NCBI RefSeq assembly: GCF_028712645.1
Contig: NZ_JAQTPQ010000003.1
Span: 1 to 37,955, forward strand
Reading direction: 5' to 3'
Origin: Flavobacterium sp.
GTDB lineage: Bacteria > Bacteroidota > Bacteroidia > Flavobacteriales > Flavobacteriaceae
DNA: 37,955 nt
Position 1 is the stretch's first letter, and each line of letters opens with the position of its first letter. Positions 4,535 through 24,383 of this stretch are shown in pieces. The notes under the pieces were generated by a model that was given only the letters and a program-made list of their open reading frames with translations, did not search any database and was not told where the DNA came from. The position numbers and the translations under genes were made by a program.

Positions 4535-5818
4535 ATGAAAAATTCTACTCTAATAATAGGGATGTTCTTTTTAGTAGTTTTTGGTGTAAATGCACAACAA
4601 GAAAAAGGAATTACTGGTATATGGTCAAACAAATGGACTGAATTTTCTCCTAATAAAGTTGATTATGGTGAAGCGAATGAAATTTTGGCTGGTAACATTA
4701 CTGAAAACACAAAGTTGTATAAGAAAAATATTTATGAATTACAAGGAGATGTTTTTGTGACAAACTATGCAACCCTTACTATTGAACCAGGGACTGTAAT
4801 TATAGGGGATTATGAATCGAAAGGTACTTTAATAATTACAAGAGGATCAAAATTAATTGCTGATGGTTTAGAAACCGATCCAATTATTTTTACTTCTAAT
4901 AGAAGTGTAAAAAAGGCTGGTGATTGGGGAGGTATAATTATTCTGGGGGATGCACCTACTAATAAATTTGGTAATGTATCCAATGTAGGCTATGGTTTAA
5001 ACCCAATTTTAGCTTCTTATGGAGGGAACGATATTGAAAGTAGTTCAGGTATTTTAAGATATGCTAGAATTGAATATGCAGGAAAAAAAATAAAAGGATT
5101 TGAAAATTTTAATTCATTATTATTAGCTGGAATAGGTAATAAAACAATAATAGAAAACATTATGGTTAGTTATTCTGCAGGAAATTCCTTTGGAATAGAA
5201 GGAGGGGAACTAAGTTTAAACAAGCTGATTTCTTTTAAATCAATTGCTGATGATTTTAAATTTAATTATGGAACACAATGTTGCATAAACAATTCGTTAG
5301 CCATTCGATCTCCTTATTTATCAAGTAATACGGGATCTAGATGTTTAGAAATTACTTCTTATGAAAAAAAGGAAGAAGTGGATTTTTCTAAACAACAAAC
5401 ATTGGTTACTGCAACAAACTTAACATTGGTTAATAATAGTAATAATTTAAGTGCCGATATTGAATCGGGTTTGGTTAAAGAAGCTATGTATGTTGCTGAA
5501 AACACAAATATTAACTTTAAAAAAACAGTTGTTTCAGGCTTTAATCCTGCAATATTATTGGATCCTGAAATTGAGATTAATAATGAAAATCTTATAAAAA
5601 TTAAATTAGTAGAAACCTATTTTAATTTATGCAAAGGAAATATTTTTTCGGTATATAATTCGAATAATGAAGATTTAGAAAATTGGTATGGGAATGTTGC
5701 TTTTGCCAATGTGTATTCTAAAGCTGATAACGCTGAAACATTCGTAGATTCTTCTAATGATAAGAAACCAGATTTTAGACTGCGAATGGGCAAAATAACA
5801 GTGTCAAATGAGGACTAA
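4535..5818 (+). CDS. Secreted beta-helix-like protein of unknown function
   Basis: 427 aa; signal peptide; LQGDVFVTNYATLTIEPGTVIIGDYESKGTLIITRGSKLIADGLETDPIIFTSNR...GDWGGIIILGDA is a recurrent Bacteroidetes right-handed beta-helix pattern. Confidence 0.8.
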   Translation: MKNSTLIIGMFFLVVFGVNAQQEKGITGIWSNKWTEFSPNKVDYGEANEILAGNITENTKLYKKNIYELQGDVFVTNYATLTIEPGTVIIGDYESKGTLIITRGSKLIADGLETDPIIFTSNRSVKKAGDWGGIIILGDAPTNKFGNVSNVGYGLNPILASYGGNDIESSSGILRYARIEYAGKKIKGFENFNSLLLAGIGNKTIIENIMVSYSAGNSFGIEGGELSLNKLISFKSIADDFKFNYGTQCCINNSLAIRSPYLSSNTGSRCLEITSYEKKEEVDFSKQQTLVTATNLTLVNNSNNLSADIESGLVKEAMYVAENTNINFKKTVVSGFNPAILLDPEIEINNENLIKIKLVETYFNLCKGNIFSVYNSNNEDLENWYGNVAFANVYSKADNAETFVDSSNDKKPDFRLRMGKITVSNED

Positions 5819-5873: not shown

Positions 5874-7367
5874 TTGAAACCATTATGTATGAAAAAGAAT
5901 TTTAAACAGCTCGAATGTAAAACGGTAACTATTGTAAAAAACCTTTTTTTTATAATAGTACTAATTTTATCCTGCTATAAAAGTTCATTTGCTCAAACTA
6001 TACTTCCTCAAAAATTACCATTTGTTAAAATATGTGCCCAGTCTGATTTCAATACTTTTGACGCTGATTTTAAATTTTCTGGCTTTCCAGCTTTGACAAC
6101 ATTTTCTGTAGAACTCTCAGATGATAAAGGCAGTTTTGCAAATCCAATAGCTACAACAACACTTTCTACGGTAGATGTTTCTGCAGGAGAAAAGACCATA
6201 TCTTTTGGCGTGCCTTCTACTTTAATCGGTTCTGAAACTTATAAATTAAGAGTTAAAAGTTCGACTGGAGCTGTTAGTGGCGATTTCAGTTCATTTGATT
6301 TAAAAACTTCTTTTCCTGCTTATTATAAACCGTATTCGCAACCTTTTTATATTAACAACCAACTTTCAAATGTTGTCATTTGTAACGGAGGAAGTGCTAC
6401 TATAACTATTGATAATCCTACACCAAATATACCTAGTTCTTCCCCAGCAAATTTCCCAGGTTTAAAGTACAATTGGTATAAAGATAACTTTCTAGTTTCA
6501 GGAGAAACAGGAGCTTCGTTAGTTGTAAATTCTTCTGGAGTTTATTATGTAGAAATAAATTATGGCTCGTGTTCAGATGTTAATTTTCGATCACAAGAAG
6601 TCACCGTTAGTGGAGCTTCGGGATCTGTTTCTACAATTACTTCTAGCCTTTCAAACCCTTTTTGTTCAAGTGCTGGTGCTACTACTTTGACGGCAACAAC
6701 AGGAAACTCTTATGTTTGGAAAAAAGATAATATTGTAATTCCAGGAGCAATTGGACAAACCTATCAAACTAGTTCAGCAGGTAAATATACTGTTGATGTA
6801 GATTTTGGGGGATGTAAATCTACGGGAACAATTGATTTGGAAGTGTTTAAAATAACGACTTCAATCAATATTCCTGAAAGTAGCACAATAAGTGAAGGGG
6901 ATTCAAAAACGGTATTAGTAAGCACAGACGCATTGAGTCCCGAGTATAAATGGTATTTAAACGGAGTTGAAATTTCTGAAGCTTCTTCAAATTCTTTTAC
7001 CGTGACCAGTACAGGAGATTATAAAGTTACCATAACCCAACTATCAGGATGTTATATTACAAACGAAATTCTATTCACAATAAATTCTATAATTGATGCA
7101 AACGCCGTCGATATTCCTAATTTAATTAGTCCAAACAATGACGGAGTAAATGATGTATGGAGTATCCCACAAGTATATGTTAGTGGAACAAATACCGAAG
7201 TAATTTTGATGAATTCTTCAGGAGAAATTGTATTAAAAACAAATGATTATCTAAATAATTGGCCGGAGAACGGGATAGATTTTAAAAACATAAATCCTGT
7301 ATATTATTATATCATTACTCCTCAAGACGGGAAAGTAAAAAAAGGTTCAATAACTGTAGTGAAATAA
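5874..7367 (+). CDS. sprC: SprC-like gliding-motility protein with C-terminal CHU_C / T9SS type B sorting domain
   Basis: 497 aa; Ig-like modules (YVWKKDNIVIPGAIGQTYQTSSAGKYTVDV) and C-terminal IPNLISPNNDGVNDVWSIP...YYYIITPQDGKVKKGSITVVK; position immediately before the SprD/SprB/SprF-like genes. Alternative start at 5889 (MKKNF). Confidence 0.75.
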   Translation: MKPLCMKKNFKQLECKTVTIVKNLFFIIVLILSCYKSSFAQTILPQKLPFVKICAQSDFNTFDADFKFSGFPALTTFSVELSDDKGSFANPIATTTLSTVDVSAGEKTISFGVPSTLIGSETYKLRVKSSTGAVSGDFSSFDLKTSFPAYYKPYSQPFYINNQLSNVVICNGGSATITIDNPTPNIPSSSPANFPGLKYNWYKDNFLVSGETGASLVVNSSGVYYVEINYGSCSDVNFRSQEVTVSGASGSVSTITSSLSNPFCSSAGATTLTATTGNSYVWKKDNIVIPGAIGQTYQTSSAGKYTVDVDFGGCKSTGTIDLEVFKITTSINIPESSTISEGDSKTVLVSTDALSPEYKWYLNGVEISEASSNSFTVTSTGDYKVTITQLSGCYITNEILFTINSIIDANAVDIPNLISPNNDGVNDVWSIPQVYVSGTNTEVILMNSSGEIVLKTNDYLNNWPENGIDFKNINPVYYYIITPQDGKVKKGSITVVK

Positions 7368-9905
7368 ATGAATAGGAACTTTATAGTTATATTATTTTTT
7401 TTCTGTGCTGTACAGATGCTCTATTCCCAAGAGGATGGAGTTGTTGCGTTTGCACTTCCAGTTCGGAATTCTTTAAAATTTAATAAATTCATCATCAACC
7501 CCACTTTTAGTTTTGTTAAAGAACAAAGTCCAATGCTTAGTTTTTATAATAAAAGACAATGGGCTCAATTTGACAATGCTCCACAAACCTTTCTTTTTAG
7601 TTATTCAGGAAGATTTAGGGAGAGCGAAGGAGTTGCTCTTGGATTGTTTCAGCAAAATTATGGTGTTTTAACCACTTTTGGTGCAGTTGCTAATTTTGCG
7701 CACAACATAACATTTCAGGAAGACAGTAATCTGACTTTTGGAATGAATTTAGGAATATACAAAAGCGGCTTAAATAAAGGAAAAGTAATTACAAATTATC
7801 CTGATCCATCGTTAGACAATATTCCATCAAATTCATTAATTACAGTAAGTCCAGGAATAAATTATGGGACTACTTTTCTTGATTTTGGTGTATCAGTAAA
7901 TAATTTAATATTATATAATCTCAAAACTTCAAAAATTATTGAAGATGATTCTGAAAAAAGTATAGAAGGGCATATAATGTACAACGGTTACATAGACTCC
8001 TATGGTTTTTTTGATAGAAGTAAATTTTCAGGTTTGATAAAAACCGAAATCAAAAAAGACAAAACCATTATTTCGGGATTAGCAATGTTAACTTTACTCA
8101 AAGGGTTATGGGTTCAAGCTGGGTATAATACCTTGTATGGAATGTCGGGAGGAATTGGGATGAATATAACTCCCAAAATTTCTATGGAATACAATTTTGA
8201 AAAAGGAACAGGGAATTTATCAAATTTTGGAGTTTCACACGAAATTGTTTTTGCCTATAAATTTAGCAGCAAAAAGTATGATTATGGAGACGACGAGGAT
8301 GAAGGATCAATTATTTCTGCTACCGAAAATCGAGTAAAAGTAACTCCTTTAAAAGAAATATCCCATCAAGAATATCAAAAATACAAAGAACAAAAAGAAG
8401 CACAATTGAAGTCCGAAGCGGAAGCCAAACTATTAGCTGCCGCAAAAGCAAAAGTAGATGCAGAAATAGCCTCAAAAGCAAAACTTGACGAAGCGGCCAG
8501 ATTAAAAGCAGAAGCAGATGCTAAAGCTAAACAATTAGCAGAATCCAAATTAAAAGCTAATTCAGGAATAGCTTCAAAAGCAAAACTTGCCGAAACGGCC
8601 AGACTGAAATCCGAAGCATATTTGAAATCCAAACAATTAGCAGAAGCAAAATTAAAAGCCGATGCAGCAGCAAAAGCAAAACTTGCTGAAGAATCAAGAT
8701 TGAAATCCGAAGCAGACGCGAAATTCAAACAATTAGCAGAAGCAAAATTAAAAGCCGATGCAGCAGCAAAAGCAAAACTTGCTGAAGAATCAAGATTGAA
8801 ATCCGAGGCAGACGCGAACTCCAAACAATTAGCAGAAGCAAAATTAAAAGCCGATGCAGCAGCAAAAGCAAAACTTGCTGAAGAATCAAGATTGAAATCC
8901 GAAGCAGACGCGAAATCCAAACAATTAGCAGAAGCAAAATTAAAAGCCGATGCAGCAGCAAAAGCAAAACTTGCTGAAGAAGCCAGATTGAAAGCAGAAG
9001 CAGATGCGGAAGCTAAACAATTAGCAGAAAAACCTAAAGACGAAAATGCTAAATCAATAGATGATTTGACAAAAATTGTAACAGATTCTAAAAAGGAACA
9101 ACAAGATTTAATAAGGCAGTTAAATGACAAAGTATCTGATAAAGAAAAAGATTTAAAAGATTTAAAAGAGGAAAATGATCTGAGTGAAAAAGGTATTTTT
9201 AAAGAGCCAAAACCATTCAAAAGCGTCACGGCTGAAAACATTGCATTAGAAAGTTTGGAATCTCAAATTGAGTTAATGAATCAATCTCAAAAAGAAAAAA
9301 TAGTTGCGTTAGATAATTTATATAAAGAAAGGATTAAAAATGGAGGTAATATAAATGATGTTACAAATCAATCCTATTTAAAAACAATTCAAGATCTTAA
9401 AGCAGAACACGTAAAAGCAATAAAATCGAATTTGGATTTAGTTTCAACTTTAGAAAAAATCAAAGTTGATACCGAGATTGAGAAAAAAAGAAGAATAAAA
9501 CGAGCCGCTTTTGCTAATAATCAAGACCGATATTTGCAAGATGTGGCTACATTAAAAAGAATAAAAGAAAAAACGGTTGTTAGCACAATTCCTTTAAAAG
9601 AATCTGATTTTGATTTTGGTGAAGAGCAGTCGAATGTTCAAGTTTTAAAAGATATTAAAAACACAGAAAAAGGATATTATTTAGTTGTTGCCGTACATGA
9701 CGATATAGTAAAAAGAGATAGTTTTTTAACTAAAACCGTAGCCTCAGGACAACCAAATGTTGATTTCTTCTATGATGTTAAATCAGGAAAATATTTCATT
9801 TATTGTGATAAATACGAATCAATAGAAGAAGCACAAAAAGGGATGGAGTCAAAAGGGAATAGACCCTATAATAGTAAAATGTCAGTAGTAAAAATAGAAA
9901 ATTAA
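7368..9905 (+). CDS. sprD: SprD-like protein: PorP/SprF-type barrel, Lys/Ala-rich coiled-coil repeats, C-terminal SPOR-like domain
   Basis: N-terminus FIINPTFSFVKEQSPMLSFYNKRQWAQFDNAPQTFLFSYSGRF is PorP/SprF-like; middle has KLAEESRLKSEADAKSKQLAEAKLKADAAAKA repeats; C-terminus GYYLVVAVHDDIVKRDSFLTKT...GKYFIYCDKYESIEEAQKGME is SPOR-like. Start codon abuts the preceding stop. Confidence 0.78.
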   Translation: MNRNFIVILFFFCAVQMLYSQEDGVVAFALPVRNSLKFNKFIINPTFSFVKEQSPMLSFYNKRQWAQFDNAPQTFLFSYSGRFRESEGVALGLFQQNYGVLTTFGAVANFAHNITFQEDSNLTFGMNLGIYKSGLNKGKVITNYPDPSLDNIPSNSLITVSPGINYGTTFLDFGVSVNNLILYNLKTSKIIEDDSEKSIEGHIMYNGYIDSYGFFDRSKFSGLIKTEIKKDKTIISGLAMLTLLKGLWVQAGYNTLYGMSGGIGMNITPKISMEYNFEKGTGNLSNFGVSHEIVFAYKFSSKKYDYGDDEDEGSIISATENRVKVTPLKEISHQEYQKYKEQKEAQLKSEAEAKLLAAAKAKVDAEIASKAKLDEAARLKAEADAKAKQLAESKLKANSGIASKAKLAETARLKSEAYLKSKQLAEAKLKADAAAKAKLAEESRLKSEADAKFKQLAEAKLKADAAAKAKLAEESRLKSEADANSKQLAEAKLKADAAAKAKLAEESRLKSEADAKSKQLAEAKLKADAAAKAKLAEEARLKAEADAEAKQLAEKPKDENAKSIDDLTKIVTDSKKEQQDLIRQLNDKVSDKEKDLKDLKEENDLSEKGIFKEPKPFKSVTAENIALESLESQIELMNQSQKEKIVALDNLYKERIKNGGNINDVTNQSYLKTIQDLKAEHVKAIKSNLDLVSTLEKIKVDTEIEKKRRIKRAAFANNQDRYLQDVATLKRIKEKTVVSTIPLKESDFDFGEEQSNVQVLKDIKNTEKGYYLVVAVHDDIVKRDSFLTKTVASGQPNVDFFYDVKSGKYFIYCDKYESIEEAQKGMESKGNRPYNSKMSVVKIEN
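8575..9030 (+). repeat. In-frame tandem repeats, 96-bp unit (32 aa)
   Basis: The marker caaaagcaaaacttgctgaag recurs at 8671, 8767, 8863 and 8959 (exactly 96 bp apart) with only a few substitutions; a more divergent copy precedes them. Confidence 0.92.
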
Positions 9906-9985: not shown

Positions 9986-12900
9986 ATGAAATTAAAAAAC
10001 TACATCCTATATATTACTTTAATTTTTCTAAGTGTTTATTATGGCAATGCTCAAGTTAAAGTTCCCTTTTCGCCAAGATTACCAGGTGGAAGCATCAAAG
10101 TAAAAGGTGACATTAAACTAGTAGGTAATAGTATTGTCAATACTGGACCTATGGGATCTCCTGCAAATACGCCTTATGTTATCAATTCTGATAATAACGG
10201 CTTGAATATGGAGTATATTGATATTGATAGTGATGCCTCGACATTTAGTTCCAGTAGCGCTGATTTAAATATTGGCACAGCTTGCAAACGGATAGTATAT
10301 GCAGGATTGTATTGGTCTGCAACATATCCTTATGAAAGAAGTACAGATGCCGCTTCTAATATCGCAGGAACACCAAGAATTACAGATTTCAACACCATAA
10401 AATTCAAATTACCTGGAGGTGCATATCTTCCCATCACGGCCGACAATACTATTTTCGACGGTTTTAATATCGATCCGTTTATTAATTTTCCAGATTCTCC
10501 TTATGTGTGTTATAAGGATGTAACCAGTCTTTTGCAAGGATTACCAGATGCAGACGGTCAGTATGTGGTTGCCAATGTGCGCTCTGCAAAAGGGCAACGT
10601 GTTAATGGAATTTCAGCGGGTTGGTCATTAGTAGTTATTTATGAAGATCCAACATTACCAAGTAAATTCATATCAACATTTGACGGATTTGCAGGGATAC
10701 ATCGTGTAAATGCTCCTTCGGTAAATGTTACAATTAATGGTTTTCAAACTATTCCGTCAGGGCCAGTAAATTTCTCTATGGGAGTTGCCGCATTAGAAGG
10801 CGATAGAACAATACTTGGAGATCAATTTTTAATCAAGGCAAATTCAGTGGCAAGCTTTACGCCTGTTGGTGGAGCATTAAATCCGCCGGGAACAATTTTA
10901 GCACCACTTTCGGCCGATTTTTTTAACTCAACAATTACCAACAACGATACACAAGTACTTAGTCGAAATCCAGCAAGCACTAACACATTAGGTTTTGACT
11001 TAGATTTAGTTACTCCACCTAACCCATCAAATAGTATCATTCCTAATGGTGAAACTGGAGCTCAATTACAATTTACTACAACCACCACAAACGGTAGTGA
11101 CGCATACAGTGTGTTTTTGACTTCATTTGCAGTTGATATAATTGAACCCAAAATTATTCTCACAAAAGTTGTACAAGATCTATTAGGAAACAACATTGGT
11201 GGTGCAACAGTTAATCTGGGAGATACTATAGAATATGTTATAGGTTTTCAAAACGTTGGAAATGATAGCGCAACTTCATTTACTATAAAAGACATTCTTC
11301 CTGTAAACGTTGTTTTTAATCCAGCAACGGGGCTGACTCTACCATCAGGAGCAACCTATACTTATAATGCAGGAACAAGAACATTGCTATTTACGGTTCC
11401 AAATAATTTGGTAGAAAAAGGAGATTCTCGTAGTGAAATCAGGATTAGGGTAAGTGTTCCTATAGATTGTAATGTCTTTAAAACAGCTTGTTCAAAAGAA
11501 ATAAAAAATCAAGCTTTTGCTTCCTATAAAGGGGTTATAAATACAACTCAAATTACAGATGATCCAAGTTTATCTTTCTTCTCTTCGTGCGCATTATCTA
11601 CACCAACGGCTACTAATTTTTTGGCTAATGTATCTGGTTGTATTTATCCTAGTTCAGCGGTACTTTGTAGCGCAAGCGTTGAGCTAACAGCTGCTTCTGG
11701 TTATGATTCTTATTCTTGGTCAACTAGCCCAACAGGCATACCAGTAATTGGAACTAATCAAACCCTTACCGTAACAAGTTTAGGAACTTATTATGTGCGT
11801 GATACGGCGACTATTCCTTGTATATCAACTATTGATGAGGTAATTACAGTTGTCGATTTTAATTCAGGCTTAACAAATCCAGTCATTCCTTATGCCGATC
11901 AAATTCCTATTTGTCCTAATGATGGAAAAAAATTACCACTTATCTTTTTATGTGGGCTAAACGATCACAGATTGATACAAACAAATACTGGAGCGCTTAG
12001 TGTTATTTGGCAAAAACTGGATCCAACAAGCTGCCCTCCAATTGCGTTGCAAAGTTGTGCCAACGAAAACGCAACTTGTACTTGGAATCAAGTAGGGACA
12101 AGCCCTGATTTTGATGCAATTGACGAAGGTCAATATAGAGTTATACTAAATTATGCAGGAGGTTGTTTTAAAAGATTTTATTTCAATGTGTTTAAAAATC
12201 CTTTAGATCCAAAATTTACCGTTCAAGATATTATTTGTACCACACCAGGAAAAATAACAATAACTAATGTTCCCTTTGATTATATATATAGTTTAGATAA
12301 TCCCGCAGGGCCATATCAGGTTAGCCCAGTTTTTACACCTGTAAGCGCAGGTACACATCACGTTTATATACAACAATTAGGCGCGGGAGACAATGCGTGC
12401 TTGTTTGATGTTTTTCCAATAGTAATTAGAGCTCATGTATTTACTACAACTGTTACTCCAATTAGTCCATTGTGTTTTGGAGATAAAGGAAGTATTAAAG
12501 TAGCAGCATTTGATGCACAGCCCCAATATACTTTTTGTTTATATTCTGGGAATGCTGCTTTACCAGCAAATTTAATTCAATGTGTGGGACCAATTGCACA
12601 AGACAACTATGAGTTTCCAAACTTAAATCCAGGCACTTATACTGTAACTATAAATACTCAAGATGGTTGCAGCAATACAAAAACAGTGACGATTACTCCA
12701 ACTCCTTTATTAACGGCAACTTTAGCACTTACAAAACCGCTGACTCCATGTTCAAATGGCGAAATTACCATATATCCAGTTGGAGGCACACCGCCTTATT
12801 GTTATTTTATAAATGGTAATTCAGTGCCACAATGTGGTAGCAATGTTATTTCTGTTCCTGCTCCAGGAGGTACTTATAATATAGTTGTGGTAGATAAAAA

Positions 12901-15900
12901 CAATTGTACATTTACCTTACCTCCTATAACTGTTGTATCCACAGTAGCTCCGTCCTATAATATTATTAAGACAGATGCGCTTTGTTCAGGAACAAGCACA
13001 GGTACCATTACCATAAATGTAACTAATGCCAACGGAAATGCCATTCAATATAGCATAGACGGAGGAACAACTTGGTTAAATTCTAATGTGTTTAATAATC
13101 TTCCGGCGGGAAATTATACCGTTATGATTAAATATGTTACCGGAACAGCGGCTTGTACCATAACAAATCCTATTACAATAAACAATCCTAATCCAATTAC
13201 CGCCACTGTAACACTAACAACCGACTATACTTGTAATAGTGCAACAGGCAGCAGCACAAATCCTGGATTGGGAGTTATTACGGTTACTGGCGTTTCGGGA
13301 GGAACTGCACCATACACTTATTGTATTGGAGGAACTTGTCAAGCACCAACGGCATCAACCACCACTACTTTTACAGGACTTGTTAATGGTAATTATACTA
13401 TCACGATTAAAGATGCCAATGGTTGTTCCAAAACATTCTCAAAAACAATTACACCATTAAACCCACCTACAAATCTAACATTTTCAGCCACAGCATTAAC
13501 TTGCCCAGCAAACACAACAACTGTAACAATCAACAATGTCACTGGAGGCGTTAGCCCTTTTCAATATCAAATTGTTGCTGCTCCACCAGCCTTTTTAGGT
13601 TCGCTGCCAACACTATATCAAAATTCTAAAAATTTTAGTGGATTGCCTCCAGGAACTTATACTTTTCAGGTAATTGATTCCAAAGGATGTACATTCCAAA
13701 AAAGCTTTACTATTCCCGTAATACCACCAATAAAAGTTGTTGGTACTTTGCTAAATAATATTGTCTGCTTTGGCACAAATTCTGGGAATATAAGATTTAC
13801 TGTTACCAATCCGGGAACAACGGGTTATACTTACACCATTAATGGAGGCGCATCTATTGCAGGTCCAGGATCTGGAATAATAAACTTGACAAATCTTGCT
13901 ACTGGAGCCTATGTTATTATTGTTAAAAGCAACCAGACAACGTGTACTGATACAGCAACAATTACGGTTGTTGCACCACCATCTGCTTTGGCAATTACTA
14001 AAACTGTAACTCCAATATCGTGTACTAATAATGGAAGTGTTGTTATAAACGCATCTGGAGGTTGGGGAAGTTATTCTTATACCCTTACTCCTCCATCAGG
14101 ACCAGTAATTGGACCACAATTGAGCAATTCATTTACAAATTTGAGTACAGTAGGACTTTATACAATAACTGTAAAAGACTCGAATGGTTGTACAGTTAGT
14201 GACACTTTTACATTAGTGGCACCAGCAACACTTACTAGTAGTATTTCTGCCGCATCTGATTTTTGTTATGATGGGACAAATGCCGCTACAATAATTATTA
14301 CAGCAAGCGGCGGTGTTGCTCCTTTAACCTATAATATTAATGGAGGACTATTTGATACCAATAACATATTCGCAAATTTAACACCTGGTTCTTATACGAT
14401 AAAAGTAAAAGATGCGGCAGGTTGCGAGCTAACTTTGCCAATGCAAACGATAGCTTCACAACTTACAATAAGTAGTGTTCTTACCAAAGGAATAGATTGC
14501 ACAGTTTCTCCAAATGCTGTAATAACAAATACCATTGCAGGAGGTTATCCTCCTTACACCTACAAAGTGAATAGTAATGCCGGAGGTTATCCAGCTGGTC
14601 CGGGAACTGCAACTTCAACACCATTTACGTTTCCAACCGCAATAGCTGGGACATTTCAGTTTCAAATAACAGACAGTAAGGGTTGTGTGGCACAATCCAA
14701 CACTATTACAGTTGACCCAATAGTAAATCCAGTTATAAATTCTGTAATACAAACACAACAAATACTATGTGGAGGTGATGCAACTGCCACGATAAACGTG
14801 AATATTGATACCACAAAAGGAGTTGGTCCATTTGTGATAAATGTATTTAACAACACTACAAGCACGAATTATGGCACACAGACTTCTAGTTTACCAGCTG
14901 GAAATTATACAATTACAGTTACTGATGCCAATTCGTGTACAAATTCTAAACCAATTGCAATTAGTCAGCCTGTCCCTATCGCATTTACCGAAGTTTTGCT
15001 CCCTATAACTTGCACTGGCTCAGGAACTACTTTTGGGTCGATTTCTGTAACTGGATTAACAGGAGGAATCGCTCCATATACATACATCCTAACCAATAAT
15101 GTTGGAGACCCTACTCAAACTTATGTTGATGCCACGGGAGCAGATTATAGTTTTACTGTCTTGAATTTTGGGATTTATGAATTAGATGTTGTCGATTCGA
15201 ATAATTGTTCTGTAAAAAAACAAAATATAGTGATGTCGTCTCCACCTAGTGATTTAACAATTAACGCTTCGATACTGCCTTCAACTTGTGCCGCTGGGGG
15301 AACTATAATTGTAGAAGTTGCTGCGACATTTACTGGTGGACCATATCATTTTGCTATATATCAATCTCCATATCCGCCCTTTCCAGATCCTGCATATCAA
15401 CCTGCCGATGCTGGATTTCTTCTACAATCAACATTTACTGGGCTAACTCCTGGAGTTACTTATTCGTTTGTTGTTTATGATGAAACTACGCAATGTTATT
15501 ATTTCAAAACTGCCGATACTCCAGTTTTATCTCTTTCAAATTTAACAAGTACGGTAACTCCAAAAAATGTAACTTGTAAAGGAAATGCAGACGGGAATGT
15601 GTCATTTACGTTTGGTAATTATAATGCTACCTCTGTAAGTTATACCATCTATAATTCACTTACAAACACCGCTGTCGTGCCATCAGTTTCAGGAACAATA
15701 CCTGGATTGACGGGCTTGCCAACATCAGTTTCTAATGAAGGTCCTTTGGCACCAGGTACTTATTACATCTTATTTACAGAAAACGATGGTGCAAATGCTG
15801 GATGTACTAAAGCATCTTCAGCATTTACAATTACTGAATCGGCAACTTTATTAAGCATCACAGCTTCAGAAATTAAAAAAGATAATTGTAATCTAAATGC

Positions 15901-18900
15901 TGGTATAATTTCAGCAACTGGGCAAGGAGGAACAGCTCCGCTAACCTATCAAATTTTACTTGCCACTAGTCCTGCGCCCACAGCAGTTTCGACAGGTTGG
16001 AGCGCAACAAACAATACACTTAATACTGAATCTGGAAATTATGTGGCTTATGTAAAAGATGCCAATAATTGTATTGCATCTTTTCCTGTAATAGTAGGAT
16101 TAGATCCTACTCCAGTAATAACAGCAACAGTAACCAATCAATGTACAGCAACAGGAAGTAATTTTAGTATAGACGTCGTTTTGACAACTGTAGGAATTGC
16201 TCCTTATACTGTAATCATAGATGGTGCAGTGCCTGTAACAAAAACATTTCCGTTTACGATAACCAATTTGTCTCCCGGATTGCATACAGTTCAAATAAAA
16301 GACGCAAATGGTTGTGGCAACACAGTGTCAAATACTATTTATCCTGAATTAATTCTTTCGGCAAGTTTTACAACATTGCCTACCTGTCTTAATAACGATG
16401 GAACCATAACTGCCATTGCAGCAGGAGGTTCAGGTGCTTATACGTATAGTTTATTTGACAGCACAGGAACTATACCATTAGTACCTGCACAACCAAGTCC
16501 CGTTTTTCCGGCGCAACCGACAGGAAGTTATCAAGTGGAAGTTGTGGATACGAATACATTATGTTCCAAAAGTATGCCTATCTCGCTTGTATTGCCAACA
16601 GCAGTAACTTTTACAACAGCACCAAGTCCTGTGAGTTGTAATGGTGGTGCAAATGGTTCGATAACAGTAATTTTGCCTGTATCAAATGACAATCCAAATT
16701 ATTTGTATGAAACTATTGCGCCTTCACCAATTATTTTTGCACCACAATCATCCAATATTTTTGCAGGATTAACGGCGGGAACTTATACTATAAAAGTAAC
16801 TTCGGGTAGAGGCTGTAGTTTAACACAACCAGAAACTATTACGGAACCAAGTCCATTAACGGCCAACGGTTCTGCAACATCATTTGGATGTGCATCGGAT
16901 AATTCTGTGAACACATCCACACTTACGATTACAGAAAGTGGAGGCACGTCACCTTATAAATATAGTATTGACGGCAGCAGTTATTTTACAACCAATATCT
17001 TTGATATTACTGATACTGGCGCAATTCAAAACATTACGGTTTATGTTCAAGATGATAATGGATGTATTGCAACCAACACTGTAATTATTAATCCTTTGCC
17101 AAAACTAACGTCCGCAACCGTGGCTATAGCTACACCTATTGATTGTAACAACACGGGATCAGTTTCAATATCAGTAACAGGTGGATCAGGAAATTTTAAC
17201 TATCAATTGTTGCCAAGCGGAATTCCACAGCCATCAAACACGTTTAGCATTTCAACTCCTGGCGATTATTATTTTCAGGTAAATGACTTGACAACAGGCT
17301 GTCATATAGAAACGTTGCCCTACACCGTTTTGCCCTATAATACAATAGATGTTGTGGCAACAACAACATCGGATGTAATTTGTTTTGGAGATGCAAATGG
17401 CACAATTGAAATAAATGTTACAGGATATTCTGGAGCTTATTCATACAATGTGTTCAACGGAGTAATTCTCCAAACATCAGGAATAGGAAATACGAGTACA
17501 AATCCGCTTCCTATAACAGGATTACCTTCTGGTAATTATACCGTAGAAGTTACTGAAACTGTAAGTCCATTTTGTGTAAAAACTTCAAATTTAGTTATTA
17601 TTGAATCGCCAATAGCACCATTAACACTCTCGGCTTCCGAAACATCAAATGTAACTTGTGATAACAACAAAGGAACAATTACTGCAATCGCAACTGGCGG
17701 TTGGGGAATACTTGAATATCAGTTAATAGGCCCGATAAGTCAAGTGTATTCTTCCAATAGTACTTTTATTGATTTGGTAGCAGGAACTTATACCATAAAT
17801 GTAAAAGACACAAAAGGATGTACACAAACAAAATTTGTAACATTAACAACTCCAAATCCTATAAATGCAACTGTAACTCCAAGTGTAGGAACTGTTGCTT
17901 GTAATGGAGATAAAAACGCCAGCATAAATATTACAAATGTAACAGGCGGACAAGGAAGCAATTATACTTATACATTGAACACCATTTTGCCAACGCCTTC
18001 AAGTTCAGGACCACAAAGCACTCCTATTTTTGATGGGTTAGGAGCAGGAACGTATAACGTAACCGTACAAGATGGTTATAATTGTATTTATACATCTGTA
18101 AATATTGTTATTGGGGAACCATCAATTATAACAGTAGATTTAAAAGTTGCAACCAATCAATCTTGTTTTAATCAAACAACACTGACTTTGACAGCAAGCG
18201 GAGGAACACCTCCCTACACTTATAGCGCAGACGGAATTAGTTATTCAGCAGGAACATTTAATCCGTCAATAACATTTGCAGTGCCAGTAGGAACCTATCA
18301 TTATTATGTTAAAGACAATAACGGTTGCATGAGCTTTGTTTCGAATGATATTAATATTGATCCTTTAACGCCTTTATCATTAACTACAAACACAGAAACA
18401 AATTTAACCATAAACTGTACAGGAGAAAGTACAGGGGTTATAAATGTTTCTGCGCAAGGTGCTTTGGGTAATTATGTTTATACACTACTCAACGGAGTTG
18501 GTGTTCCAATTGCTACAGAGCCATCACAAGGACCAACAGTTACTGCAAATTTTACAGGATTAATTGCAGGAACATATATTGTAAGAGTGATGAGTGGTGA
18601 TTGTAGTTTAGACTCCACAGTCTTTACAATAAGCGAACCCACAACACCGATAACTGCAACATATACACTAACAGATGTAAGTTGCAACGGAGCCAACAAC
18701 GGAAAAATTGTAATTAATGCTTCTGGCGGAACTGGAATTATTAGATATGCTATTTCTCCTCAAAGAAATCAATTTTTCACAACAAGTACATTTGATAATC
18801 TTGCTCCAGGCAATTATGATGTAATTGTGCAAGATGAAAACGGATGTATTGCACCTATTAATTTTGATATAAGCGAACCAACACCAGTAGCGGTCACTAT

Positions 18901-19867
18901 GGTTTCAGGTTCTCTAATTCCAGAAATTTGTAAAGGAGACAATGATGGCGAGTTTAGCATTGATATTTCAGGAGGAACACTTCCTTATAGTGTAAGTTTA
19001 GATAACCCAGCAGGTGTTTATACAACTGGAACTCCAACTCAAACACAGTTTGATTTTACAGGATTAGGCGGAGGAGACCATAAGGTTTATATCCGTGACG
19101 CAAATTTATGTAATGCTGAGTTACCGATTTCTTTACCAGCATCAGTAAAATTAGATCCACAAGCCATTGTTGATTATAGTTGTGTAAACAACGCTCCAAG
19201 CAATACTGTTACAGTAACCGTTGATGCCAGCATAACCAATCCTGCCGATGTCGATTATGCATTAGATGGAATTCCTCCTTATCAAGCTAGCAATGTGTTT
19301 ACCAATGTCTCAGCTGGAACCCATTTTATAAGTGCAAGACATACAAATGGCTGTATTCAGCAAACCCAAAATTTCACTATTCTTCAAATAAATCCTTTGG
19401 CGGTTATTTTGATTAATGGTGGATTGAATGAGATAGTTGCAACAACCACAGGAGGTTCAGGGATTTATCATTATACGTTTAATGGGGAATCCACAGGAAC
19501 TAGCAACACTTATATTTATTATAAAACAGGTGTTTACACTGTTGAAGTTGTAGATAGCGAAGGGTGTACCGCAACGGATACTAAGCCGTTCACATTCATC
19601 GATATTGAAATTCCAAATGTATTTACGCCTAACAATGATGGCAATAATGATACTTGGGGACCAACAAACACGAGGAATTACCCAGACTTAATATATCATA
19701 TTTTTGATCGCTATGGACGTAAAGTAGGAACCTACAGAGAAGGACAATTTTGGGACGGGAAATACAATGGTCTAGAATTGCCTTCGGGGGACTATTGGTA
19801 TGTGTTAAAATTGAATAATGACCAAGACGGAAGAGAATTTATGGGTCATTTTACTCTTTACAGATAA
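9986..19867 (+). CDS. sprB: SprB-like giant gliding-motility adhesin, T9SS type B substrate
   Basis: 3293 aa; signal peptide; DUF11-like module (KIILTKVVQDLLGNNIGGATVNLGDTIEYVIGFQNVGNDSATSFTIKDILP); about 28 SprB repeats (SGGTxPYTYxxxG...GxYTxxVxDxxGC); C-terminal IEIPNVFTPNNDGNNDTWGP...IFDRYGRKVGTYREGQFWDGKYNGLELPSGDYWYVLKLN CHU_C domain. Confidence 0.92.
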   Translation: MKLKNYILYITLIFLSVYYGNAQVKVPFSPRLPGGSIKVKGDIKLVGNSIVNTGPMGSPANTPYVINSDNNGLNMEYIDIDSDASTFSSSSADLNIGTACKRIVYAGLYWSATYPYERSTDAASNIAGTPRITDFNTIKFKLPGGAYLPITADNTIFDGFNIDPFINFPDSPYVCYKDVTSLLQGLPDADGQYVVANVRSAKGQRVNGISAGWSLVVIYEDPTLPSKFISTFDGFAGIHRVNAPSVNVTINGFQTIPSGPVNFSMGVAALEGDRTILGDQFLIKANSVASFTPVGGALNPPGTILAPLSADFFNSTITNNDTQVLSRNPASTNTLGFDLDLVTPPNPSNSIIPNGETGAQLQFTTTTTNGSDAYSVFLTSFAVDIIEPKIILTKVVQDLLGNNIGGATVNLGDTIEYVIGFQNVGNDSATSFTIKDILPVNVVFNPATGLTLPSGATYTYNAGTRTLLFTVPNNLVEKGDSRSEIRIRVSVPIDCNVFKTACSKEIKNQAFASYKGVINTTQITDDPSLSFFSSCALSTPTATNFLANVSGCIYPSSAVLCSASVELTAASGYDSYSWSTSPTGIPVIGTNQTLTVTSLGTYYVRDTATIPCISTIDEVITVVDFNSGLTNPVIPYADQIPICPNDGKKLPLIFLCGLNDHRLIQTNTGALSVIWQKLDPTSCPPIALQSCANENATCTWNQVGTSPDFDAIDEGQYRVILNYAGGCFKRFYFNVFKNPLDPKFTVQDIICTTPGKITITNVPFDYIYSLDNPAGPYQVSPVFTPVSAGTHHVYIQQLGAGDNACLFDVFPIVIRAHVFTTTVTPISPLCFGDKGSIKVAAFDAQPQYTFCLYSGNAALPANLIQCVGPIAQDNYEFPNLNPGTYTVTINTQDGCSNTKTVTITPTPLLTATLALTKPLTPCSNGEITIYPVGGTPPYCYFINGNSVPQCGSNVISVPAPGGTYNIVVVDKNNCTFTLPPITVVSTVAPSYNIIKTDALCSGTSTGTITINVTNANGNAIQYSIDGGTTWLNSNVFNNLPAGNYTVMIKYVTGTAACTITNPITINNPNPITATVTLTTDYTCNSATGSSTNPGLGVITVTGVSGGTAPYTYCIGGTCQAPTASTTTTFTGLVNGNYTITIKDANGCSKTFSKTITPLNPPTNLTFSATALTCPANTTTVTINNVTGGVSPFQYQIVAAPPAFLGSLPTLYQNSKNFSGLPPGTYTFQVIDSKGCTFQKSFTIPVIPPIKVVGTLLNNIVCFGTNSGNIRFTVTNPGTTGYTYTINGGASIAGPGSGIINLTNLATGAYVIIVKSNQTTCTDTATITVVAPPSALAITKTVTPISCTNNGSVVINASGGWGSYSYTLTPPSGPVIGPQLSNSFTNLSTVGLYTITVKDSNGCTVSDTFTLVAPATLTSSISAASDFCYDGTNAATIIITASGGVAPLTYNINGGLFDTNNIFANLTPGSYTIKVKDAAGCELTLPMQTIASQLTISSVLTKGIDCTVSPNAVITNTIAGGYPPYTYKVNSNAGGYPAGPGTATSTPFTFPTAIAGTFQFQITDSKGCVAQSNTITVDPIVNPVINSVIQTQQILCGGDATATINVNIDTTKGVGPFVINVFNNTTSTNYGTQTSSLPAGNYTITVTDANSCTNSKPIAISQPVPIAFTEVLLPITCTGSGTTFGSISVTGLTGGIAPYTYILTNNVGDPTQTYVDATGADYSFTVLNFGIYELDVVDSNNCSVKKQNIVMSSPPSDLTINASILPSTCAAGGTIIVEVAATFTGGPYHFAIYQSPYPPFPDPAYQPADAGFLLQSTFTGLTPGVTYSFVVYDETTQCYYFKTADTPVLSLSNLTSTVTPKNVTCKGNADGNVSFTFGNYNATSVSYTIYNSLTNTAVVPSVSGTIPGLTGLPTSVSNEGPLAPGTYYILFTENDGANAGCTKASSAFTITESATLLSITASEIKKDNCNLNAGIISATGQGGTAPLTYQILLATSPAPTAVSTGWSATNNTLNTESGNYVAYVKDANNCIASFPVIVGLDPTPVITATVTNQCTATGSNFSIDVVLTTVGIAPYTVIIDGAVPVTKTFPFTITNLSPGLHTVQIKDANGCGNTVSNTIYPELILSASFTTLPTCLNNDGTITAIAAGGSGAYTYSLFDSTGTIPLVPAQPSPVFPAQPTGSYQVEVVDTNTLCSKSMPISLVLPTAVTFTTAPSPVSCNGGANGSITVILPVSNDNPNYLYETIAPSPIIFAPQSSNIFAGLTAGTYTIKVTSGRGCSLTQPETITEPSPLTANGSATSFGCASDNSVNTSTLTITESGGTSPYKYSIDGSSYFTTNIFDITDTGAIQNITVYVQDDNGCIATNTVIINPLPKLTSATVAIATPIDCNNTGSVSISVTGGSGNFNYQLLPSGIPQPSNTFSISTPGDYYFQVNDLTTGCHIETLPYTVLPYNTIDVVATTTSDVICFGDANGTIEINVTGYSGAYSYNVFNGVILQTSGIGNTSTNPLPITGLPSGNYTVEVTETVSPFCVKTSNLVIIESPIAPLTLSASETSNVTCDNNKGTITAIATGGWGILEYQLIGPISQVYSSNSTFIDLVAGTYTINVKDTKGCTQTKFVTLTTPNPINATVTPSVGTVACNGDKNASINITNVTGGQGSNYTYTLNTILPTPSSSGPQSTPIFDGLGAGTYNVTVQDGYNCIYTSVNIVIGEPSIITVDLKVATNQSCFNQTTLTLTASGGTPPYTYSADGISYSAGTFNPSITFAVPVGTYHYYVKDNNGCMSFVSNDINIDPLTPLSLTTNTETNLTINCTGESTGVINVSAQGALGNYVYTLLNGVGVPIATEPSQGPTVTANFTGLIAGTYIVRVMSGDCSLDSTVFTISEPTTPITATYTLTDVSCNGANNGKIVINASGGTGIIRYAISPQRNQFFTTSTFDNLAPGNYDVIVQDENGCIAPINFDISEPTPVAVTMVSGSLIPEICKGDNDGEFSIDISGGTLPYSVSLDNPAGVYTTGTPTQTQFDFTGLGGGDHKVYIRDANLCNAELPISLPASVKLDPQAIVDYSCVNNAPSNTVTVTVDASITNPADVDYALDGIPPYQASNVFTNVSAGTHFISARHTNGCIQQTQNFTILQINPLAVILINGGLNEIVATTTGGSGIYHYTFNGESTGTSNTYIYYKTGVYTVEVVDSEGCTATDTKPFTFIDIEIPNVFTPNNDGNNDTWGPTNTRNYPDLIYHIFDRYGRKVGTYREGQFWDGKYNGLELPSGDYWYVLKLNNDQDGREFMGHFTLYR

Positions 19868-19914: not shown

Positions 19915-20877
19915 ATGAAAAATATAATCCTATCATTTCTACTCTTAGCAATAACCTCAAGTTACTGTCAAGAATTAAATATACCAGTTGCCACTCAATA
20001 CTTGGCTGATAACCCTTTTGTGATATCTCCAACTTTTGCAGGTATTGGCGATAATTTTAGAATAAGAGCTAATGGAATGAAACAGTGGGTTGGAGTAAAA
20101 GAAGCTCCTCAAAACCAAGCCATTTATGCAGATTTTAGAATAGCAGATCAATCTGGGGTTGGGGTATCTTTCTACAATGACAAAAATGGATATACTAGCC
20201 AATCAGGAGCCAAATTTTCCTTTGCTCATCACATCATTTTAGATTATTATTCCAAGCAATATTTGTCTTTTGGAATGTCTTTTAATGTAAATAATTTTAA
20301 AATCGACATAGGACAATTTTCTCCAATTAATTTTGATCCAAGTATTACAGACGATAGATTTACATCCAATAAAAACTTTGATGTGGGTTTATTATACAGA
20401 AATAAAGAGTTTTATTTTAGTTTTAACTTAAGTAATATTTTAGATAAAAACATCGACAAGTTTTCAGGAATTAAGATTGAACCTAATTTACTTCGCAATT
20501 ATCAAATATATTCAGGGTATGTAATTAAAACGCAAAATTGGTCAGAGATAGAGCCGTCTGTATTTTATCAATATTTTGTAAGTGATAAGCGTTCAAGCAC
20601 TGATGTTAATATTAAATACAGAAAATTCAACAATAACGATGATTATTACTGGGCAGGAATTACTTATCGTTTTTTGAATGATCAAATCCTTCAGCCATTA
20701 ACCATAGGACCTATGGCAGGATTCAAAAAAAATGGGTTTTATTTTGGCTATTCTTATCAGCAAACACTTAATGAATTAATTTCCTATAATTCTGGCACTC
20801 ATATTATTACAATAGGATTTGATTTTCTTGCGCATATTAGCAACTGTCCTTGTACACAAAGCCCAGTTCACGATTAA
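19915..20877 (+). CDS. sprF: Type IX secretion system membrane protein PorP/SprF family
   Basis: LNIPVATQYLADNPFVISPTFAGIGDNFRIRANGMKQWVGVKEAPQNQAIYADFRIADQSGVGVSFYNDKNGYTSQSGAKFSFAHH is classic PorP/SprF; directly downstream of the SprB-like gene. Confidence 0.92.
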   Translation: MKNIILSFLLLAITSSYCQELNIPVATQYLADNPFVISPTFAGIGDNFRIRANGMKQWVGVKEAPQNQAIYADFRIADQSGVGVSFYNDKNGYTSQSGAKFSFAHHIILDYYSKQYLSFGMSFNVNNFKIDIGQFSPINFDPSITDDRFTSNKNFDVGLLYRNKEFYFSFNLSNILDKNIDKFSGIKIEPNLLRNYQIYSGYVIKTQNWSEIEPSVFYQYFVSDKRSSTDVNIKYRKFNNNDDYYWAGITYRFLNDQILQPLTIGPMAGFKKNGFYFGYSYQQTLNELISYNSGTHIITIGFDFLAHISNCPCTQSPVHD

Positions 20878-22346: not shown

Positions 22347-24383
22347 ATGATTAAAAAAAACACCATTTTATCGATTTTTCTATTGCTGTCTGCTCAGTTG
22401 TTTTCACAGCAAGTTGCAACAAAAGAAACGCGATTATCCTATTTAGATTCCGTTAAAAATTCATTTACGAAATATGATGTAGCCGCTCGTGTGGACAGTT
22501 TATGGTTGAATGAATTGACAAATCTAGATTTATACAATGATTTATCAGGTGACATCAAGACTATTAATGTTGACGAAAAAGTTGACTACGAATTGTCAAC
22601 AGATTTGCTGAAAGCAAGACTGAAAGCAATGGATGCAAAATCGCCATTTCATATCGAATACAATCAAGGACTTGAAAACATAATCAAATCATTTTTAAAG
22701 AATAGGAAAAAATCTTTTGAACGATTAATGGGTATTTCTGAGTATTATTTTCCAATGTTTGAAGAGGCTTTAGCTAAGAAAAACGTGCCATTGGAGATAA
22801 AATATTTAGCAGTTGTAGAATCAGCATTAAATCCAAAAGCAGTTTCCAGAGTGGGTGCTACAGGACTCTGGCAGTTTATGTATCAAACAGGGAAACTTTA
22901 TAATCTAAATATTGATTCGTATGTTGATGATAGAAGCGATCCTTTAAAAGCTAGTGAAGCAGCAGCGCAATATATGGCTAATATGTATGCCATTTTTGGC
23001 GACTGGGAATTAGTTTTGGCATCGTATAATTCAGGACCAGGAAATGTTACCAAAGCAATTCGACGTTCAGGAGGCCAACAAAATTTCTGGAATATCAAAA
23101 AATTTCTTCCAAAAGAAACTCAAAGTTACGTCCCTGCTTTTCTTGCTACAATGTATATTTTCGAATATCATAACGAACACGGAATACATCCTGAAAGAGC
23201 TATCGTAAATCATTTTGCTACGGATACTATAATGATTAAAAAACAAATGTCGTTTAAACAAATTTCTGATTTGATAGATGTTCCTGTTGCACAATTGCAA
23301 TTATTGAATCCATCTTATAAAATGAACGAGGTTCCGTTTTATGAAAATCAAAATCATTTTTTAAGGTTGCCAAAAGATAAAATCGCCATTTTTACTTCAA
23401 ATGAAGATCGAATTTATGCCTATGTACAACACGAAATGGATCTTCGCGAAAAACCATTTCAGGTTACCAAAGCAATTGCTATAAATGATACAATTAATTA
23501 TACTACTCAAAGGGTAACGGTTCCAAAAACCAAATATTATACGGTACGACGTGGAGATAATCTTGGAGGAATTGCTGATAAATATGATGTCAGTTTGGTA
23601 GATTTGAAAAAATGGAACAAGCTAAAAGGGAATACTATTTCTTATGGGAAGAGCCTAAAAATCATTGCAAGCGAAAGCGTAGTTAGAACTATAAAGAAAG
23701 AACCTAAGACGAATAAAATTCCATTGGAAATTGCGCCAGACAATCAAAAACTTGCTTCAACAGAAGCTAAAACAGCAAAAGCTGAATTAGCCAAGAAATC
23801 TATTAAAATCGATACCTTGTCAACTAATTCAACTTATTACGTTGTTCAAAAAGGCGATAATTTAGGAAATATTGCTAAAAAATTGAATGTTACTGTTGAT
23901 GAAATCAAGCAATGGAATAATCTTTCGGATGCAAATATTAAATTAGGAGCATCGTTGCAAGTGGCTAATATTGATACAGAATCTCAAGAAATTGCTCCAA
24001 CCTCCAAGTTTGAAAACGTAGAATACGTGGTTAAAAAAGGAGATAATTTAGGGAATATTTCCAAAAAATTTGGGTCATCTATTGATGATATTAAATTATG
24101 GAATAATTTACAAAATCCAAATATCTCTCTAGGAAGCACCTTGATAGTTGCCAAAAATGAAATCCCAATTGCAAGTAAAACTGCCGAAAAAACTTTCAAG
24201 AAAAAAGAAAGTTTAGCATCTGTTTCAAAAAAGAATGCTACAGATTATTATGTAAAAAAAGGGGATTCATTATACAGCATTGCTAAAAAATATCCTGGCG
24301 TAAGCATTTCCGACATTAAAAAATGGAACGATATTCGCGAAGGAGAATTGAAACCCGGAATGAAGTTAAAAATAAACGGATAA
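22347..24383 (+). CDS. mltD: MltD-type lytic transglycosylase with four LysM modules
   Basis: SLT core LAVVESALNPKAVSRVGATGLWQFM...ASYNSGPGNV; four LysM copies (YYTVRRGDNLGGIADKY; YYVVQKGDNLGNIAKKL; YVVKKGDNLGNISKKF; YYVKKGDSLYSIAKKY). Confidence 0.93.
   Translation: MIKKNTILSIFLLLSAQLFSQQVATKETRLSYLDSVKNSFTKYDVAARVDSLWLNELTNLDLYNDLSGDIKTINVDEKVDYELSTDLLKARLKAMDAKSPFHIEYNQGLENIIKSFLKNRKKSFERLMGISEYYFPMFEEALAKKNVPLEIKYLAVVESALNPKAVSRVGATGLWQFMYQTGKLYNLNIDSYVDDRSDPLKASEAAAQYMANMYAIFGDWELVLASYNSGPGNVTKAIRRSGGQQNFWNIKKFLPKETQSYVPAFLATMYIFEYHNEHGIHPERAIVNHFATDTIMIKKQMSFKQISDLIDVPVAQLQLLNPSYKMNEVPFYENQNHFLRLPKDKIAIFTSNEDRIYAYVQHEMDLREKPFQVTKAIAINDTINYTTQRVTVPKTKYYTVRRGDNLGGIADKYDVSLVDLKKWNKLKGNTISYGKSLKIIASESVVRTIKKEPKTNKIPLEIAPDNQKLASTEAKTAKAELAKKSIKIDTLSTNSTYYVVQKGDNLGNIAKKLNVTVDEIKQWNNLSDANIKLGASLQVANIDTESQEIAPTSKFENVEYVVKKGDNLGNISKKFGSSIDDIKLWNNLQNPNISLGSTLIVAKNEIPIASKTAEKTFKKKESLASVSKKNATDYYVKKGDSLYSIAKKYPGVSISDIKKWNDIREGELKPGMKLKING

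Follow-up and report, generated by a model that had tools for sequence, protein, structure and literature searches.

The genes sprC and sprD have reportedly been known since 2011 as required for gliding, without a mechanism. A closely related system is that of SprF, the carrier of SprB, which is disulfide-bonded to GldK via a C-terminal Cys-x-Cys motif (PMC12635249). Type B cargo stays with a PorP-like carrier of its own (PMC9143113, PMC12635249), and SprC itself is described as moving on the gliding track in PMC12635249, which cites a D.Phil. thesis for it. In P. gingivalis, PorP binds PorE, and the OmpA-like domain of PorE binds peptidoglycan (PMC9143113).

Here we analyze the SprD protein encoded in a stretch of 37,955 nucleotides of Flavobacterium sp. 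DNA (contig NZ_JAQTPQ010000003.1), the whole of which we call the window. The architecture that we describe, an outer-membrane barrel followed by a helical arm and a predicted SPOR-fold domain, makes the role of SprC and SprD testable.

The sprD locus and its orthologs

The genes of the locus and the parts of SprD are the following.

4535..5818, + strand: conserved gene without a Pfam match, syntenic with sprCDB, upstream of sprC
5874..7367, + strand: sprC, with Ig-like repeats and CHU_C (type B T9SS sorting domain, residues 413-495; Pfam PF13585, 49.3 bits)
7368..9905, + strand: sprD, an open reading frame of 845 aa whose start comes directly after the sprC stop codon
7368..7427, + strand: probable Sec signal peptide, residues 1-20 (...FFFCAVQMLYS/Q), predicted by sequence inspection only
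7455..8258, + strand: PorP/SprF-type outer-membrane barrel, residues 30-297 (Pfam PF11751 and NCBIfam TIGR03519)
8322..9092, + strand: Ala/Lys/Glu-rich long helix, residues ~319-575, predicted to be of the single-alpha-helix type from its charge pairing and its lack of heptad periodicity
8473-9029, + strand: 32-aa (96-bp) tandem repeats in the SprD arm, 5.7 copies
9120..9572, + strand: conserved helical module, residues ~585-735 (motifs ENDLSE, PKPFKS and RRIKRA; ortholog alignment and AlphaFold helices)
9621..9902, + strand: predicted C-terminal SPOR-fold domain, residues 752-845 (AlphaFold, Foldseek and homologs above the Pfam SPOR cut-off)
9986..19867, + strand: sprB, adhesin of 3293 aa with SprB repeats (PF13573, E=1.5e-83, 17 repeats) and a type B sorting domain
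19915..20877, + strand: sprF, PorP/SprF barrel, carrier of SprB, with a Cys-x-Cys tail (SNCPCTQ, residues 311 and 313)

The open reading frame 7368-9905 encodes an ortholog of Flavobacterium SprD, the product of a known gliding-motility gene. Its barrel is most similar to that of SprD and its gene adjoins sprC. Since the neighbours are a sprC-like gene (CHU_C), sprB (SprB repeats) and sprF (PorP_SprF), the gene order is the Flavobacterium order sprC-sprD-sprB-sprF. The initial annotation had called the protein SprD-like, with a PorP/SprF barrel in about the first 300 residues and a second helical segment further on, and all of this holds. Barrel similarity and gene order agree on the identity; PF11751 (PorP_SprF) matches SprD with E=5.3e-48 and 164.3 bits (cut-off 22.3) and TIGR03519 with 174.5 bits (cut-off 90.55); and the helical segment is seen both in the alignment and in the AlphaFold model. 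As an example, SprD of F. johnsoniae CI04 (L173) has gene order, barrel, helical module and SPOR-fold tail in common with the window protein.

The arrangement is conserved well beyond the window. sprC adjoins sprD in 82/82 complete clade-1 loci and in 7/7 clade-2 loci. sprB comes next in 68 of those 82 clade-1 loci, and in the rest it lies beyond the sequence end or was undetected. The gene at 4535-5818 is found directly upstream of sprC in all 16 of the 16 clade-1 loci examined. The window's genome also has genes for GldJ and GldK, both above curated cut-offs. Downstream of sprF and a phosphoglycerate kinase gene, the window also carries an SLT transglycosylase with four LysM domains (22347-24383).

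In six other assemblies (L151, L156, L159, L167, L191 and L194), the sprD frame is broken within the spacer repeats. We considered phase variation and rejected it: three of the six breaks fall at runs of N and the others in repeats, and for that reason assembly error is likelier.

The C-terminal SPOR-fold domain

In a sample of 36 orthologs, the last 261 residues of SprD are 38-59% identical and 21 positions never vary. One could still suppose, given a spacer that is repetitive and variable, that everything after the barrel is a chance low-complexity extension without a specific role and that the barrel alone matters. This conservation contradicts it, as does the retention of the SPOR-type domain in clade 2, and we regard it as extremely improbable.

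The initial annotation had read the C-terminus as SPOR-like and had named structure prediction as one check. That check bears it out. AlphaFold models residues 585-845 as helices followed by the order E-H-E-E-H-E (mean pLDDT 85), and the C-terminal domain modeled alone gives strand-helix-strand-strand-helix-strand again (pLDDT 84, pTM 0.73). When this domain is compared with 350,542 PDB chains using Foldseek, the SPOR domains of CwlC (rank 1, probability 0.97, E=0.015) and DamX (rank 2, probability 0.90, E=0.05) come out on top, with that of DedD at rank 17 (probability 0.85, E=0.26). No E-value falls below 0.001 in this search of the PDB with the domain alone, and such modest values are to be expected because the query has 96 residues. 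With the helical module included, Foldseek returns only chance helical matches.

The second check, an HMM search of the tail against SPOR (PF05036), came out negative for SprD itself, whereas homologous domains pass the cut-off. Searching Pfam and NCBIfam with the single SprD sequence gives no SPOR match in the tail, which stays below the PF05036 gathering score; a sequence search of the PDB with a profile of the tail gives nothing, and one with the whole of SprD gives low-complexity matches only. On the other hand, the PF05036 cut-off of 21 is passed by clade-2 SprD homologs, at 25.3 and 24.4 bits (one copy each, L042/L105 and L043/L106), and by a PorE-like protein bearing an SprD-type domain, at 31.7 bits. 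Profile comparison connects these levels: the SprD tail matches the intermediate domains with E=1e-26, and the intermediates match Pfam-positive SPORs with E=3e-8. Compared directly, SprD tail and SPOR reach E=4e-4 at 34% probability, where the best of 30 column shuffles used as a control reaches E=0.038.

Thus, as judged by predicted structure and profile comparison, the SprD tail is a divergent SPOR fold (beta-alpha-beta-beta-alpha-beta) related to SPOR via intermediates. It sits at the C-terminus as had been proposed, but starts near position 9621 rather than 9650. With the SPOR domains of PF05036 (FtsN, DamX, RlpA, CwlC) it shares the fold, the strand-helix order and the sequence link via intermediates; it differs from them in lying below Pfam detection on its own and in its putative glycan site.

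To our knowledge, the SPOR domains with a determined ligand all bind denuded peptidoglycan. RlpA-SPOR holds the glycan through side-chain contacts of Q270, R302, R309 and R311 and through stacking of F274, and the basic patch of a SPOR domain can be built from different residues (PMC6895207). Mapping the RlpA and FtsN positions onto SprD through sequence and the order of strands rather than a structural superposition, we find V, I or L at the position of RlpA Q270 in 33/33 SprD orthologs and Y or F at that of R309 in 33/33; an invariant His (H777) takes the position of RlpA F274, and an invariant Lys (K808) that of FtsN W283. The loss of Gln and Arg is not decisive, because the residues of the basic patch vary and because, within the same bacterial family, only 8 of the 29 SPORs that Pfam recognizes keep the glycan-contact Gln and 21 lack it. 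The replacements would weaken, but leave possible, glycan binding by this domain. Moreover, its sheet face is strongly conserved, H777 and K808 included, so an altered glycan site is possible.

These residues bear on the alternative of a wall tether, in which the SPOR domain would bind denuded peptidoglycan and anchor SprC-SprD, and perhaps nearby gliding machinery, to the wall. The fold itself speaks for it, and so does the precedent of P. gingivalis, where PorP is connected to the wall by the peptidoglycan-binding OmpA-like domain of PorE (PMC9143113); SprD would then combine the parts of PorP-PorE in a single chain. In PorP-PorE-PG1035, likewise, a PorP-like barrel with a type B protein is linked to a module of the wall-binding type, with the difference that the OmpA-like domain belongs to PorE, a lipoprotein of its own, and SprD would carry a putative SPOR-type head on its own chain. 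Given the replaced Gln and Arg, and the observations on arm and cargo below, we consider a wall tether somewhat unlikely.

The helical arm

Between the barrel and the helical module, the window SprD has an arm of ~280 aa, of which ~257 aa are the Ala/Lys/Glu stretch. It had been described as about 200 residues of coiled coil. A repetitive Lys/Ala/Glu segment is certainly there, and is somewhat longer than noted, but the heptad or hendecad hydrophobic periodicity of a coiled coil is absent from the spacer, where the local power of the hydrophobic signal over periods of 3.4-3.75 is lower than in shuffled sequences (z=-1.8). The amphipathic power of the F. johnsoniae CI04 spacer is lower still (z=-7.3 against shuffles), and tropomyosin, our positive control for amphipathic periodicity, has z=+7.6. 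What we do find is a threefold excess of i,i+4 opposite-charge pairs, 62 vs. 20.5 in shuffles (z=10.6), which in F. johnsoniae CI04 reaches z=24.6. By these measures, the spacer carries the charge signature of a single alpha-helix (ER/K type) and lacks the periodicity of a coiled coil. On the opposite strand, a 288-aa open reading frame (8375-9241) mirrors the sprD repeats.

The length of the arm varies greatly. In the 82 clade-1 orthologs that are complete, barrel and helical module are separated by 112 to 1367 aa (12-fold; median 546), with F. johnsoniae CI04 at 1367 aa, while these two parts, the SPOR domain and the neighbouring genes stay constant. The idea that the repeats set the length of a spacer between barrel and wall has to be given up, because an arm that varies 12-fold with the other parts fixed cannot set that distance; this variation also argues against a wall tether more generally. 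As a straight helix, at 0.15 nm per residue, 112-1367 aa would extend over ~17-205 nm. With a periplasm of some 20-30 nm across, the long arms would have to lie along the envelope or fold. Arm length does not correlate significantly with SprB length (rho 0.36, p 0.13, 19 genomes, uncorrected for kinship).

A natural periplasmic helix of 112-1367 residues between conserved ends would be unusual in itself, and it constrains tether models. Domain II of TolA is likewise a long Ala/Lys/Glu-rich periplasmic helix of an envelope-spanning protein; the weak NCBIfam match of TolA to the SprD arm is below cut-off and reflects a low-complexity likeness, with homology supported by no test. As far as the literature searched shows, a coverage outside which the original 2011 sprD paper falls, there is no published description of the SPOR fold or of the variable single-helix arm of SprD, and we found no paper on SPOR together with gliding or T9SS.

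SprD as a proposed carrier of SprC

SprF and SprD have much in common. Both have a PorP/SprF barrel, both are encoded in a common operon, and each gene adjoins that of a type B cargo. Their ends are different: SprF has the short Cys-x-Cys tail bonded to GldK, present in 18/18 SprF orthologs with a complete tail, whereas SprD has no such motif and has instead the arm and the SPOR domain. In 81 of the 82 SprD orthologs, there is no Cys after the barrel. The only cysteines of the window SprD are Cys13 and the unconserved Cys813, without an SprF-type Cys-x-Cys; we rejected Cys813 as a disulfide anchor, as its position is Tyr in most orthologs. Such a contrast within one operon suggests that SprD and SprF are coupled to the envelope in different ways.

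By position and family, SprC is the likely cargo of SprD. The reading that we prefer, and to which we give about an even chance, is that SprD is an outer-membrane carrier and anchor dedicated to SprC, with a helical arm and a SPOR head docked non-covalently on a periplasmic partner. The barrel would take over the CHU_C domain of SprC from the T9SS translocon, in the manner of PorP-like proteins with type B cargo, and would retain SprC on the cell surface. On the periplasmic side, a stiff single-alpha-helix arm would lead to the helical module and then to the SPOR-fold head, which would dock onto its partner without a covalent bond. The arm is too variable and often too long for a radial ruler, and probably either follows the envelope lengthwise or serves as a flexible boom.

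What the partner might be depends on the movement of SprC. To the extent that the passage of PMC12635249 citing the thesis describes it, movement of SprC on the track is a poor fit with a fixed wall anchor. If SprC rides SprD, then SprD itself would move as a carrier, and a fixed anchorage of its SPOR head in the wall is unlikely, although weak or transient contact of the head with the wall is possible. As a partner, the GldJ/GldK/GldN track, or a protein carried along on it, would fit the reported movement best, and better than immobile peptidoglycan. The initial annotation had proposed a static tether from an outer-membrane barrel to peptidoglycan with a spacer set by the repeats. As worded, this does not agree with a 12-fold variable arm, with the replaced glycan-contact Gln and R309 (which are not decisive) or with a mobile SprC as that source reports it.

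The carrier reading can be carried one step further, to a second coupling by which Bacteroidota would link surface proteins to envelope machinery, besides the SprF-GldK disulfide: a carrier barrel with a stiff single-helix boom of up to ~200 nm along the envelope, whose SPOR head would have been repurposed from glycan to the moving gliding track. We offer this tentatively and hold it to be unlikely.

The company that the domain keeps in other proteins can be read in two ways. In HU-CCDC81 proteins (L036:1028-2404, L037:800-2155, L038, L040), an SprD-type domain follows a transmembrane stretch and a canonical SPOR, as a second SPOR-like copy. Flavobacterium proteins of ~640-664 aa (L039:428-2416, L128, L131-L135) have four LysM domains, a helical region and an SprD-type C-terminal domain; we did not find such a protein in the window's own genome (92% complete). 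A PorE-like protein (L107:7652-10354) has an N-terminal SPOR-type domain and OmpA at its end, and smaller proteins (L122, L123, L126) have an N-terminal SPOR-type domain and, by inspection, an OmpA-like end. The coexistence of the SprD-type domain with LysM (L039), OmpA (L107) and canonical SPOR (L036) favours a wall tether, but proteins with any of these would need no further wall-binding domain. The association with wall-binding modules may thus mean either additional wall contact, or docking where wall contact already exists.

The latter possibility could be general, with the domain acting as a protein-protein docking module (for instance by SPOR-SPOR pairing) and SprD joining a static adhesin complex unlinked to the track. 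The recurrence of the domain in PorP-like carriers, in one or two copies, and in PorE-like and LysM proteins would be explained in this manner. But a second domain-bearing protein is found in only some of the SprD-bearing genomes, and a static complex is at odds with the mobility of SprC reported in that same passage, which makes this alternative quite improbable.

The sprD homologs of clade 2 (L104-L106, L224-L227), from other Flavobacteriaceae, are syntenic with sprD, have a shorter linker and usually carry two SPOR-type domains. In genomes with a clade-2 sprD, SprC is longer (~750-800 aa).
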